DNA from: an uncultured Xanthobacteraceae bacterium
Lineage (GTDB): Bacteria; Pseudomonadota; Alphaproteobacteria; Rhizobiales; Xanthobacteraceae
DNA: 10,043 nt
Reading direction: 5' to 3'
Assembly: GCA_955652195.1 (NCBI GenBank)
Contig: CATPBC010000077.1
Location: 1 to 10,043 of the forward strand
This document shows positions 6,823 through 10,043 of this stretch, piece after piece; the first letter of the stretch is position 1, and each line of letters begins with the position of its first letter. Under the pieces are notes generated by a model that saw only the letters and a program-made list of their open reading frames with translations, searched no databases and was not told the origin of the DNA. A program made the position numbers and the translations under genes.

Positions 6823-7311
6823 ATGCGAGGGGAGCCGGGTGTCGTCGATTATCTCAACAAGGCGCTGCGGCACGAGTTGACCGCGGTCAATCAATATTGG
6901 CTGCATTATCGCCTGCTCGACAATTGGGGCTACAAATCGCTCGCCAAGCAATGGCGCAAGGAATCCATCGAGGAGATGCAGCACGCCGATAAGCTCGTCG
7001 AACGCGTCATCTTTCTTGACGGTTTTCCTAACATGCAGGTGCTCGATCCGCTGCATATCGGACAGAACGTGAAGGAAGTACTCGACTGCGATCTCGCCGC
7101 CGAGATTTCAGCACGCACGCTCTACGAGGAAGCCGCTACGCATTGCCATTCGGTTCGCGATTATGTGTCGCGCGATCTGTTCGAAAAGCTCATGCACGAT
7201 GAGGAGGAACACATCGATTTCCTCGAAACCCAGCTTGATCTCGTCGCCAAGCTTGGGCTTGAACTCTACGCGCAGCATCACATTGGCGAACTTGAAGAGG
7301 ACGAAGACTGA
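6823..7311 (+). CDS. bfr: Bacterioferritin (haem-containing iron-storage protein)
   Basis: A 162-residue subunit of the 24-mer bacterioferritin shell, which oxidises Fe(II) at a di-iron centre and stores it as a ferric mineral in the cytosol. Seen: the four-helix ferritin fold beginning with [19 protein letters not shown]; all di-iron ligands in family positions, namely Glu18, Glu51, His54, Glu94, Glu127 and His130; and Met52, the haem ligand shared by two subunits, so it should be a haem-binding, ferroxidase-active Bfr rather than a plain ferritin. The C-terminal tail is acidic (GELEEDED). Length is close to the usual 155-161. ATG 6823 has AGGAG (6812-6816) six bases upstream. bfd lies just upstream and should supply the electrons for iron release. 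Rhizobial bfr genes are typically under Irr/iron control; no convincing site is visible next to this one. Confidence 0.97.
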
Positions 7312-7466: not shown

Positions 7467-7495
7467 TTGACGTCGGTCACCCGCTTCCTTATTTC
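7467..7495 (+). promoter_or_regulatory. Candidate promoter for serC-serA
   Basis: TTGACG (7467-7472, 5 of 6) and TATTTC (7490-7495) are spaced by 17 bases. The expected start, near 7502, falls exactly where the structured serC leader begins, which supports the call. Confidence 0.5.
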
Positions 7496-7501
7496 CGGCG
7501 A

Positions 7502-7548
7502 CGGGACACCCCTCCCCACCGAGGGGCGACTATCTGGAAGGATAGGCC
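7502..7548 (+). promoter_or_regulatory. serC leader RNA: two hairpins, the second enclosing the Shine-Dalgarno
   Basis: Two adjacent hairpins fill the leader. Hairpin 1 pairs CCCCTC (7509-7514) with GAGGGG (7521-7526) around CCCACC. Hairpin 2 pairs CTATCT (7530-7535) with GGATAG (7540-7545), last pair a U-G wobble, capped by GGAA, a GNRA-type tetraloop. The Shine-Dalgarno GGAAGGA (7536-7542) is the loop and 3' arm of hairpin 2, six bases before the ATG, so folding would hide or present it. Order, position and sequence fit the serC motif, a cis-regulatory RNA described by comparative genomics upstream of serC in alphaproteobacteria (Rfam serC family). The ligand or trans-acting factor is, to my knowledge, unresolved. 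The match is from memory, not from a covariance search. Confidence 0.75.
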
Positions 7549-8721
7549 ATGACCTCAGCGATGCCCTCCGTGCGGCCGGTAGTGCCGCATTTTTCGTCCG
7601 GCCCCTGCGCCAAGCGCCCCGGCTGGAGCCTGCAAAACCTCGCTGGCGCGCTGCTCGGCCGCTCGCATCGCTCGAAGCCCGGCAGGGTGAAGCTCAAACG
7701 CGCCATCGACCTGACGCGCGAGGTGCTGCAGGTCCCGGCCGATTACCGGATCGCCATCGTGCCGGCTTCCGATACAGGCGCCATCGAAATGGCCCTGTGG
7801 TCGCTTCTTGGACCGCAGCCGGTGACTATGCTCGCGTGGGAATCTTTCGGCGAGGGTTGGATCAACGACGTCGTCAAGGAGCTCAAGCTCAAAAATGTAA
7901 CCGTGCTGCGCGCGCCCTATGGCGAATTGCCCGATCTCGGCTCGGTCGATCCGGCGAGCGACATCGTGTTCACCTGGAACGGCACGACCTCCGGCACGCG
8001 GGTGCCGAATGCCGATTGGATCGCTGCCGCCCGCACCGGCCTCTCGATTTGCGACGCAACCTCTGCCGCATTCGCGCAAGCCTTGGACTGGCCGAAGCTC
8101 GATGTCGCAACGTTTTCCTGGCAGAAGGTGCTGGGCGGCGAGGCGGCGCATGGCATGCTGATTTTGTCCCCGCGCGCGGCGGCGCGGCTTGAAACGTGTA
8201 AGCCGCCCTGGCCGATGCCAAAAATCTTCCGCATGACCAAAGGCGGCAAGCTAAACGAAGGCATCTTTCAGGGCGAGACCATCAACACGCCGTCCATGCT
8301 GTGCCTCGAAGATTATCTCGATGCGCTGGAATGGGCGCAGTCGATCGGCGGGCGCAAAGCGTTGCACGCGCGCGCCGACGCCAACACCAAAGTCATCGCC
8401 GATTGGGCGGCGCGTACATCGTGGATTGATTTTTTGACCCGCGATCCGGCGCTGCGCTCCAATACGTCGGTGTGCCTGAAAGTCGTCGATCCGGCAGTTA
8501 CCCGTCTGCCGGGCGAGGTACAAGCTGCTTTCGTAAAGGGCATCGCGGCGGCGCTCGAGAAAGAAGGCGTCGCCTATGACATCGCCGCCTATCGCGACGC
8601 TCCCCCGGGTTTGCGCATATGGTGCGGTTCGACAGTCGAACGCACCGACGTCGAAGCGCTCACGCTGTGGCTGGATTGGGCCTATGCCACCGCCAAAGCC
8701 GCGCTTGCCACCGCGGCGTGA
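7549..8721 (+). CDS. serC: Phosphoserine aminotransferase (alphaproteobacterial/Methanosarcina-type SerC)
   Basis: A 390-residue PLP-dependent class V aminotransferase that converts 3-phosphohydroxypyruvate and glutamate to phosphoserine and 2-oxoglutarate in the cytosol. It belongs to the divergent branch (TIGR01365 type) rather than the E. coli-type SerC. Seen: FSSGPCAKRPGW at 15-26, IAIVPASDTGAIEMALWSLLG for the cofactor-phosphate region, FTWNGTTSGTRVPN, the Asp-containing CDATSAAFA, the Schiff-base lysine Lys193 in FSWQKVLGG, and EGIFQGETINTPSMLCLEDYLDAL. ATG 7549 has the Shine-Dalgarno GGAAGGA six bases upstream inside the leader hairpin; a second ATG at 7561 is less likely. serA starts 35 bases after the stop, so the two form an operon for the first two steps of serine synthesis, probably controlled through the leader RNA. 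Identification is very secure. Confidence 0.96.
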   Translation: MTSAMPSVRPVVPHFSSGPCAKRPGWSLQNLAGALLGRSHRSKPGRVKLKRAIDLTREVLQVPADYRIAIVPASDTGAIEMALWSLLGPQPVTMLAWESFGEGWINDVVKELKLKNVTVLRAPYGELPDLGSVDPASDIVFTWNGTTSGTRVPNADWIAAARTGLSICDATSAAFAQALDWPKLDVATFSWQKVLGGEAAHGMLILSPRAAARLETCKPPWPMPKIFRMTKGGKLNEGIFQGETINTPSMLCLEDYLDALEWAQSIGGRKALHARADANTKVIADWAARTSWIDFLTRDPALRSNTSVCLKVVDPAVTRLPGEVQAAFVKGIAAALEKEGVAYDIAAYRDAPPGLRIWCGSTVERTDVEALTLWLDWAYATAKAALATAA

Positions 8722-8756: not shown

Positions 8757-10043
8757 ATGGCGCCGCGAGTCCTTATTTCGGATGCGCTTTCTCCGGCGGC
8801 GGTGGCGATTTTTAAGAATCGCGGCCTCGACGTGGAATTTCAACCCAACCTGGGCAAAGACAAGGAAAAGCTTGCCGCCGCAATTGACGGTTTCGATGGC
8901 CTGGCGATCCGATCCGCGACCAAGGTCACGGCCAAGCTGCTGGAGCATGCCAAGAGCTTAAAGGTGATCGGCCGCGCCGGCATCGGCGTGGACAATGTCG
9001 ACATCGCAGCGGCGACGGCGCGCGGTGTCATTGTTATGAACACGCCATTTGGCAATTCGATCACGACGGCGGAACATGCGATCACGCTGATGCTGGCATT
9101 GGCGCGGCAAATCCCGGAAGCCGACAGTTCGACCCGCGCCGGCAAGTGGGAGAAAAACAAGTTTCTCGGCGTTGAGATCTTCAGCAAGACGCTGGGCATC
9201 ATCGGCTGCGGCAATGTCGGCTCGATCGTCGCCGACCGTGCGCTCGGCTTGAAGATGAAGGTTATCGCCTACGATCCTTTCCTGTCCGTCGAACGCGCAC
9301 TCAAGCTCGGTGTCGAGAAGGTCGAACTGGACGAGTTGTGGCGCCGCGCGGATTTCATCACGTTGCATACGCCGCTAACCGAAAAGACGCGCAATATCAT
9401 CAATGCCGAAACTCTGGCGCAGATGAAGCGCGGCGTGCGGCTAATCAATTGCGCGCGCGGCGAACTGATCGACGAGGCCGCGCTCGCTACGGCGTTGAAA
9501 TCGGAGCAAGTCGCCGGCGCGGCGCTTGATGTCTTCCGGGAGGAGCCGGCCACCCAAAGCGTGCTATTCGGCTTACCCAATGTGGTGTGCACGCCGCATC
9601 TTGGCGCCTCGACCATGGAGGCGCAGGAAAACGTCGCGCTGCAAATCGCCGAGCAAATGTCGGACTACCTTCTGCGCGGCGCGATTTCCAATGCCGTCAA
9701 TTTCCCCTCGATCAGCGCCGAGGAAGCGCCCAAACTCAAACCGTTTATCGCGCTTGCGGAAAAGCTCGGTTCGTTCGCCGGCCAGCTCACCGAAAGCGGC
9801 ATCAAGCAGGTGCGGATTACCTACGAGGGCGGGGTCGCCGAAATGAACACCAAGGCGCTGACCTCCGCTGCGGTGGCGGGCCTGCTCCGGCCGATGCTAC
9901 AAGAGGTCAATGTCGTCTCGGCGCCAATTGTCGCCAGAGATCGCGGCATTGTCGTTGAGGAAACCCGCCGCGATGCCGAAGGCGACTACGACAGTCTGAT
10001 CACGCTCGCTGTCGTGACGGATCGGCAAACGCGCTCAGTCTCA
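8757..10043 (+). CDS. serA: D-3-phosphoglycerate dehydrogenase, N-terminal 429 residues (3' end outside window)
   Basis: Oxidises 3-phosphoglycerate to 3-phosphohydroxypyruvate with NAD+, the committed step of serine synthesis. The frame is open from ATG 8757 to the last base, with GAGAGGA (8743-8749) seven bases upstream of the start. Seen: RAGIGVDNVDIAAATARG, AEHAITLMLALAR, the NAD-binding GCGNVG at 150-155, and the catalytic set Arg234 (NCARGELID), Glu263 (VFREEP) and His281 (TPHLGAS). The protein continues past the catalytic core into the stretch from about residue 320 onward (AEEAPKLKPFIALAEKLG, then EMNTKALTSAAVAGLL), which is the allosteric substrate-binding (ASB) domain of the long, about 530-residue form; the C-terminal ACT domain would lie beyond the window. 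Expected to be feedback-inhibited by serine in this class, by family knowledge only. Transcribed with serC. Confidence 0.96.
   Translation, partial: MAPRVLISDALSPAAVAIFKNRGLDVEFQPNLGKDKEKLAAAIDGFDGLAIRSATKVTAKLLEHAKSLKVIGRAGIGVDNVDIAAATARGVIVMNTPFGNSITTAEHAITLMLALARQIPEADSSTRAGKWEKNKFLGVEIFSKTLGIIGCGNVGSIVADRALGLKMKVIAYDPFLSVERALKLGVEKVELDELWRRADFITLHTPLTEKTRNIINAETLAQMKRGVRLINCARGELIDEAALATALKSEQVAGAALDVFREEPATQSVLFGLPNVVCTPHLGASTMEAQENVALQIAEQMSDYLLRGAISNAVNFPSISAEEAPKLKPFIALAEKLGSFAGQLTESGIKQVRITYEGGVAEMNTKALTSAAVAGLLRPMLQEVNVVSAPIVARDRGIVVEETRRDAEGDYDSLITLAVVTDRQTRSVS

Follow-up and report, generated by a model that had tools for sequence, protein, structure and literature searches.

A serC leader in an uncultured Xanthobacteraceae bacterium: a conserved core, a candidate 5'-terminal pseudoknot and a second leader form

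What does the short leader of the serC-serA mRNA sense, and which part of it could do the sensing? Corbino et al. (2005) described the serC element, its position at a promoter and its hairpin at the ribosome-binding site (RBS), and proposed that a protein acts on it; where that paper treats in-line probing, L-Ser, L-Thr, PLP and four B6 compounds are given as causing no change (PMC1273637). PMC3766115, in its entry for serC, gives 32 sites and no known effector, and a 2020 review by Sherlock & Breaker still places it among the long-standing orphan riboswitch candidates (PMC7266159). Among the matches listed in a literature search by title, abstract opening and term counts, none reported a ligand for the serC leader. 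A 2018 article by Greenlee et al., which PMC9971707 cites as RNA Biol. 15:377-390, may pre-empt the pseudoknot or the second leader form described below. We analysed a 10,043-nt stretch of DNA from an uncultured Xanthobacteraceae bacterium (the window). A sequence-only reading of it had proposed a serC leader made of nothing but two hairpins, the second of which takes up the RBS and the ligand of which is unsolved; on sequestration and ligand it agrees with what Corbino et al. and the 2020 review say of the element.

Its assignment to the serC motif held up. The Rfam covariance model of the serC leader (RF00517) matched positions 7499-7550 of the forward strand over its entire 52 nt, at 69 bits against a cut-off of 35 (E 6e-14), and matched nowhere else in the source assembly, which is 85% complete. 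The match stands before a serC-serA operon, and the second hairpin (P2) ends at 7545 with the ATG of serC at 7549, within the ≤11 nt given by Corbino et al. (PMC1273637). The leader shares with the family of Corbino et al. the sequence, both stems, the GNRA-capped RBS hairpin, a predicted promoter directly upstream and the operon, and we found no notable difference: it is an ordinary RF00517 member, of the form that we call type 1. Of the named relatives found through SerC, the nearest, at 85% identity, is an uncultured Xanthobacteraceae bacterium.

Both hairpins are present in the window as first drawn, with the Shine-Dalgarno (SD) sequence in the loop and part of the 3' arm of P2, the innermost pair of which is U.G (Table 1). 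We gathered 173 leaders by a scan that required GGG and CCC, from which four rows were dropped: L084, which has no core and does not precede serC; L022, whose P1 is irregular (presumably the row with 3 P1 pairs); L104, with an unclear core; and L169, with a spacing of 10. The per-position counts use 134 distinct leaders. The alignments hold 85 distinct gapless cores (A1), 103 distinct P2 hairpins (A2) and 29 distinct rows of the second leader form (A3). The compensatory changes that the sequence-only reading had asked for occur in both stems, in counts that kinship among rows inflates: 147 cells changed on both sides in P1, against 42.6 (sd 5.6) in shuffles, and 131 in P2, against 37.4 (sd 7.0). 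The inner six pairs of P1 are unpaired in 3 of 510 cells, five of them have double-sided changes, and slid alignments reach at most 31 such cells. P2 is paired in 99.7% of cells, with a covariation of 0.620 vs 0.217; A2 was anchored on C-N-G-N-R-A-G-G, so its two invariant inner pairs are partly a matter of construction. Family match and covariation together make the leader more than a chance structure.

Table 1 Features of the serC leader region (positions in the window).
Feature	Position	Strand	Basis or remark
Bacterioferritin gene (TIGR00754)	6823-7311		serC leader lies downstream of it
-35 element TTGACG	7467-7472	+	TTG-to-GGG spacing, 36 nt in the window
-10-like TATTTC, weak	7490-7495	+	17-nt spacer after TTGACG, by eye
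Predicted +1	7502-7503	+	inferred from spacing
GGG at motif positions 5-7, putative 5' strand of S1	7503-7505	+	invariant in A1, though required by the scan
First loop N-C, motif positions 8-9	7506-7507	+	C9 in 124/134 distinct leaders
A10, facing C29	7508	+	A.C in 171/171 canonical-P2 leaders
P1 (hairpin 1) 5' arm CCCCTC	7509-7514	+	covariation
P1 loop CCCACC	7515-7520	+	sequence
Loop CCC at motif positions 17-19, putative 3' strand of S1	7515-7517	+	invariant in A1, though required by the scan
Third loop ACC (A[A/C]C)	7518-7520	+	A20 133/134, C22 134/134
P1 3' arm GAGGGG, pairing with CCCCTC	7521-7526	+	covariation
C29, facing A10	7527	+	171/171 canonical-P2 leaders
P2 (hairpin 2) 5' arm CTATCT	7530-7535	+	covariation
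P2 loop GGAA (GNRA)	7536-7539	+	sequence
SD-like GGAAGGA, P2 loop and part of 3' arm	7536-7542	+	sequence
P2 3' arm GGATAG	7540-7545	+	covariation
serC, phosphoserine transaminase (TIGR01365)	7549-8721	+	profile match
serA, phosphoglycerate dehydrogenase (TIGR01327)	8757-10043	+	profile match; continues past the window end

Folding energy did not single out the leader: the stretch 7503-7563 folds at -18.5 kcal/mol (z -0.13), and 87 of 200 shuffles were equally stable. The two-hairpin fold of this stretch has -17.1 kcal/mol against that minimum, in which GGGA pairs with UCCC and GAGGGGC with downstream bases; for stretches of 43-52 nt starting at 7503 the two-hairpin fold is itself the minimum. 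In that lower-energy fold, between 7521 and 7556, GAGGGGC pairs with GCC and CCTC around the ATG of serC; the downstream half of the fold is by eye not conserved among close relatives.

A transcription start near 7502 had also been predicted, and the promoter-like spacing, read by eye, puts +1 there or at the next base, but scanning with a strict E. coli-type promoter model gave no hit. The TTG of the -35 element lies 35 nt (56 leaders) or 36 nt (100) before the GGG in 156 of 173 leaders, a spacing by which the mRNA is predicted to begin with the GGG or one base before it; of the remaining leaders, 10 have other distances and 7 have no TTG within the range searched. As a control, GGG stands 35-36 nt after 122 of 128 TTGAC sites preceding a core, these being sites picked for a nearby GGG, and after 20 of 845 other TTGAC sites. 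The S. meliloti leader transcript SmelC653 is listed with 143 nt and a 34% overlap with RF00517 (PMC2873474); if the Rfam entry used there was 52 nt long, that overlap of ~48-49 nt means that the transcript begins at motif position 4-5, in agreement with the predicted start. Counted from the ATG, the GGG of the window leader starts at -46, as does that of S. meliloti Ak57, and the GGG of R. tumorigenes at -48; the A. tumefaciens construct described by Corbino et al. ran from -46 to +11 (PMC1273637). A leader peptide read from the GTG in GGTGGG was considered and rejected: 94 of 134 distinct leaders have C at position 4, so this start codon is not conserved.

We wondered whether the two hairpins are the whole of the element, as first claimed. 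Both are real, and they leave two things unexplained: an invariant GGG at the 5' end, and a CCC in the loop of P1 that is complementary to it. Against their pairing stands that any two invariant triplets have 1 chance in 64 of being Watson-Crick complementary. In H-type pseudoknots the first loop can be short where it spans the deep groove of 6-7 bp, and about 3 nt can span 3 bp. The GGG and CCC probably pair (helix S1) into a pseudoknot of this plausible geometry at the 5' end of the mRNA, in which S1 would have 3 bp, the first loop of 2-3 nt would cross P1 and the third loop of 3 nt would cross S1. P1 covaries and S1 does not, but covariation is uninformative on S1 because both of its strands are invariant in A1. 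At loci picked by SerC similarity alone (the best 80 of 584 confirmed relatives, near ones and chiefly Hyphomicrobiales), the GGG, the loop CCC and a P1 with 5 or more of its 6 pairs were present in 80 of 80, with GGG and CCC 9 nt apart in 79 and 10 nt apart in one. When 73 RF00517-negative SerC leaders were searched by P1 geometry alone, 15 placements had 6/6 pairs, with 2.95 expected from shuffling; GGG/CCC was present in 11 of these and absent in 4. Lengthening S1 to GUGGG/CCCAC was rejected, as position 4 is independent of the loop (C/AA 68, T/AA 31, C/AC 25, T/AC 9 and C/GC 1 of 134). The repeat GGCGAC, proposed as a possible part of the motif, does occur at 7497-7502 and 7525-7530, and proved to be chance: the window has 8 copies on the forward strand and 11 on the reverse, and of the 173 leaders 1 has it in the first place, 5 in the second and only the window leader in both.

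Comparison of leaders across the class showed a second form, type 2, in several alphaproteobacterial groups, in which the aligned core is kept and the canonical RBS hairpin is absent. With the window leader it shares the 5' GGG, P1, CCC-A[A/C]C and the serC gene downstream; it differs in having a seventh P1 pair, at position 10/29, and no canonical P2. The leaders concerned are L238-L262, L293, L299-L311, L082, L083, L088, L090, L092, L122, L124, L125 and L156, a list that includes some genomes twice, L082, L083, L088, L092 and L156 having been refetched with the orders. A model built from A1 (R1) was used to search three orders. It overlooked the leader of G052 although that row had been used to train it, so that its empty answers mean little; it matched 6 of 6 genomes in the order of G230, 19 of 36 in that of G107 and 24 of 61 in that of G109. 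The loci read numbered 6, 19 and 20 (of the 24), and all 45 stand before serC. Canonical P2 was absent from 25 of 25 loci in the first two orders and from 13 of 20 in the order of G109, where the other 7 are type 1 with P2; both types thus occur within one order. Nine leaders from the class draw lack it as well (L082, L083, L088, L090, L092, L122, L124, L125 and L156), and in L122, L124 and L125 a different hairpin covers the SD.

In type 2, P1 covaries on its own: its seven pairs are paired in 98.5% of cells, with 48 double-change cells against 14.5 (sd 3.6) in A3. The RNA that follows is almost unfolded (mean -1.4 kcal/mol over 33 leaders, three of them at -6.6), compared with a mean of -6.5 kcal/mol for the RNA past P1 in 158 canonical leaders. 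The AGG of the SD starts 8-13 nt after position 29 in type 2 and 11-12 nt after it in canonical leaders. None of 38 type-2 loci reached the Rfam cut-off, while 2 of 2 type-1 controls did; in the class draw, L082 and L083 had matched RF00517 at 28-29 bits, below the cut-off. By eye, 30 of 37 distinct type-2 leaders have an ACA starting 1-3 bases past position 29 (e.g. L246, L252, L293, L299, L301). In five genomes of one genus (L245-L249) the mmgR/suhB sRNA (RF00519) lies on the opposite strand, ~0.4 kb or less upstream of the type-2 leader.

Position 10/29 separates the two forms. All 171 leaders that have canonical P2 (131 distinct) show A.C there, and among 45 without it (34 distinct) the position is G.U in 27, G-C in 16, A-U in 1 and A.A in 1, the last being L262, the sole type-2 leader in which it is unpaired; by eye, L301, L302 and L305, additional to the 45, have G-C. 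The SerC tree requires 8 changes of leader type, with only 1 independent pair on well-supported branches. Several independent losses of P2 were considered, and a single clade of all non-canonical rows was not rejected (p-AU 0.679), so the coupling between 10/29 and P2 may rest on few events. The fixed GGG-CCC geometry contrasts with a variable P2 of 5 to 9 pairs joined by a linker of 0-4 nt (164 leaders). The core (5' GGG, P1 and loop CCC-A[A/C]C) is the most conserved part of the element, and P2 is replaceable.

The element follows one gene and is patchy. At E ≤ 0.001, RF00517 matched 84 of 289 genomes of the class, once per genome and 81 times above the cut-off; 83 of the 84 matches stand before serC, the exception being L084, below the cut-off. 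The search passed over five type-1 leaders (L087, L097, L118, L135, L141). With one match per matching genome in the class and order searches, no other gene was seen under the element. In a phylum draw 63 of 299 genomes matched, all 63 labelled with the same class or closer. SerC itself is present in 227 of the 289 class genomes, so many serC genes lack the element. Among the matches listed, SerC rows were followed down to ~E 1e-151; plasmid records with a SerC match numbered 28, and 8 of these were inspected. The core precedes serC in two, S. meliloti Ak57 and R. tumorigenes, and no core was found within 110 nt before the annotated start on the Deinococcus, Ilyobacter, Azospirillum lipoferum, Methylorubrum CM4, Agrobacterium sp. 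T29 and Prescottella plasmids; with 6 of 8 loci lacking it, a spread of the leader together with serC was rejected. The plasmid SerC proteins of Deinococcus proteolyticus (63% identity; L265) and Ilyobacter polytropus (55%; L267) are of the alphaproteobacterial kind and have no leader core, perhaps reflecting transfer of the gene without the switch.

Taken together, the two helices shown by comparison, with the SD inside P2, the conserved core and the form without canonical P2 suggest the following reading, to which we give a probability of about one half: the whole 5' UTR of ~46 nt would be a cis-acting, pseudoknot-based translational OFF element of the serC-serA mRNA. The GGG, at or adjoining +1, would pair with the loop CCC, and the core so formed would sense a product-side signal of serine synthesis, either a metabolite or a protein that senses one. 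In type 1 the occupied core would stack on P2 and keep the SD closed, A10.C29 being the joint that passes the state of the core to P2; in type 2 it would crowd the SD instead, making P2 one of at least two routes to the ribosome. With the core occupied and the SD shut or crowded, serine synthesis would be off at the level of translation. We favour an OFF switch, a direction argued from P2 closing the SD by default and from serC-serA making the precursor of serine. Switching through an anti-SD fold with the 5' half was rejected: there is no excess complementarity, and matched leaders pair core with SD region more weakly than permuted ones do, in all 40 permutations for two segments out of three and in 36 or 34 of 40 for the third, which is evidence against a competing fold. 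At ~25 nt the core is small for a metabolite pocket, and this counts against the preferred reading. We judge its more specific version less likely than not: that the switch is a 5'-terminal H-type pseudoknot of ~25 nt which controls the ribosome site on its own, type 2 mostly doing without an RBS hairpin, and which A10.C29 couples to P2 in type 1.

The rival that survives best, unlikely in our estimate, does without the pseudoknot: a regulatory protein, either PyrR-like or SerC/SerA itself, would bind to the two hairpins and open or hold that of the RBS, with GGG and CCC as its contacts. To our knowledge, no regulatory protein is known for the serC leader. Corbino et al., in their discussion of serC, suggested a protein and named PyrR leader regulation, a possible case of protein sensing on a short leader, and the seven small molecules that they describe had no effect (PMC1273637). 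The small core and the lack of covariation in S1 also suit a protein, but it would then be coincidence that GGG and CCC are exactly complementary at their fixed spacing.

We consider it improbable that a closed SD ends transcription early at a terminator hairpin with a U-run in the first serC codons, a translation-coupled attenuation. A terminator-like hairpin at 7570-7590 is followed by TTTTTC (1 found vs 0.4, sd 0.6, in shuffles), and the stretch before FSSGP is more stable than in GC-matched synonymous shuffles, both in 140 type-1 genes (-9.19 vs -7.30, sd 0.22) and in 31 of type 2 (-9.25 vs -7.71, sd 0.57), with no excess in 50 serC genes lacking the core (-4.61 vs -4.73, sd 0.40). TTT encodes the F of FSSGP in 104 of 165 type-1 genes, compared with 359 of 1472 other F codons, but TTT is not enriched in type 2 (17/39 vs 114/283), the place of the hairpin varies by lineage, and repeated CCGG from K-P-x-x-R-P codons may account for much of the structure. 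Quite improbable, too, is a plain RBS hairpin or thermosensor with no ligand; P2 covers the SD and is of moderate stability, as given above, but this leaves the conserved core unexplained, and the core survives the loss of P2. In pyrG-like initiation control, extra G's gained by slippage at a +1 GGG would pair with the C-rich loop when a nucleotide runs short; the GGG at or adjoining +1 and the C-rich stretch after it fit, but GGG is followed by different bases (C 65, A 53 and T 16 of 134), and we hold this to be very improbable. A DNA operator for a transcription factor just past +1 is scarcely credible despite conserved inverted repeats by the promoter, since the invariant U.G of P2 and the many G.U exchanges in the stems (A1, A2) break DNA symmetry and preserve RNA pairs, indicating that the element works as RNA and not as DNA.

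The fluoride (crcB) and preQ1-I riboswitches are small pseudoknots in which a tail pairs with a hairpin loop. The serC leader resembles them in its proposed topology and small size alone, its own pseudoknot being an inferred one. Should the pseudoknot reading be true and the core bind a metabolite directly, this would be among the smallest natural aptamers, and ligand tests on RNAs with a non-native 5' end may have missed the ligand. For a riboswitch candidate that dates from 2005, ligand searches gain concrete constructs from a proposed pseudoknot that can be tested at the exact 5' end and from a natural leader in which the core occurs apart from the RBS hairpin.
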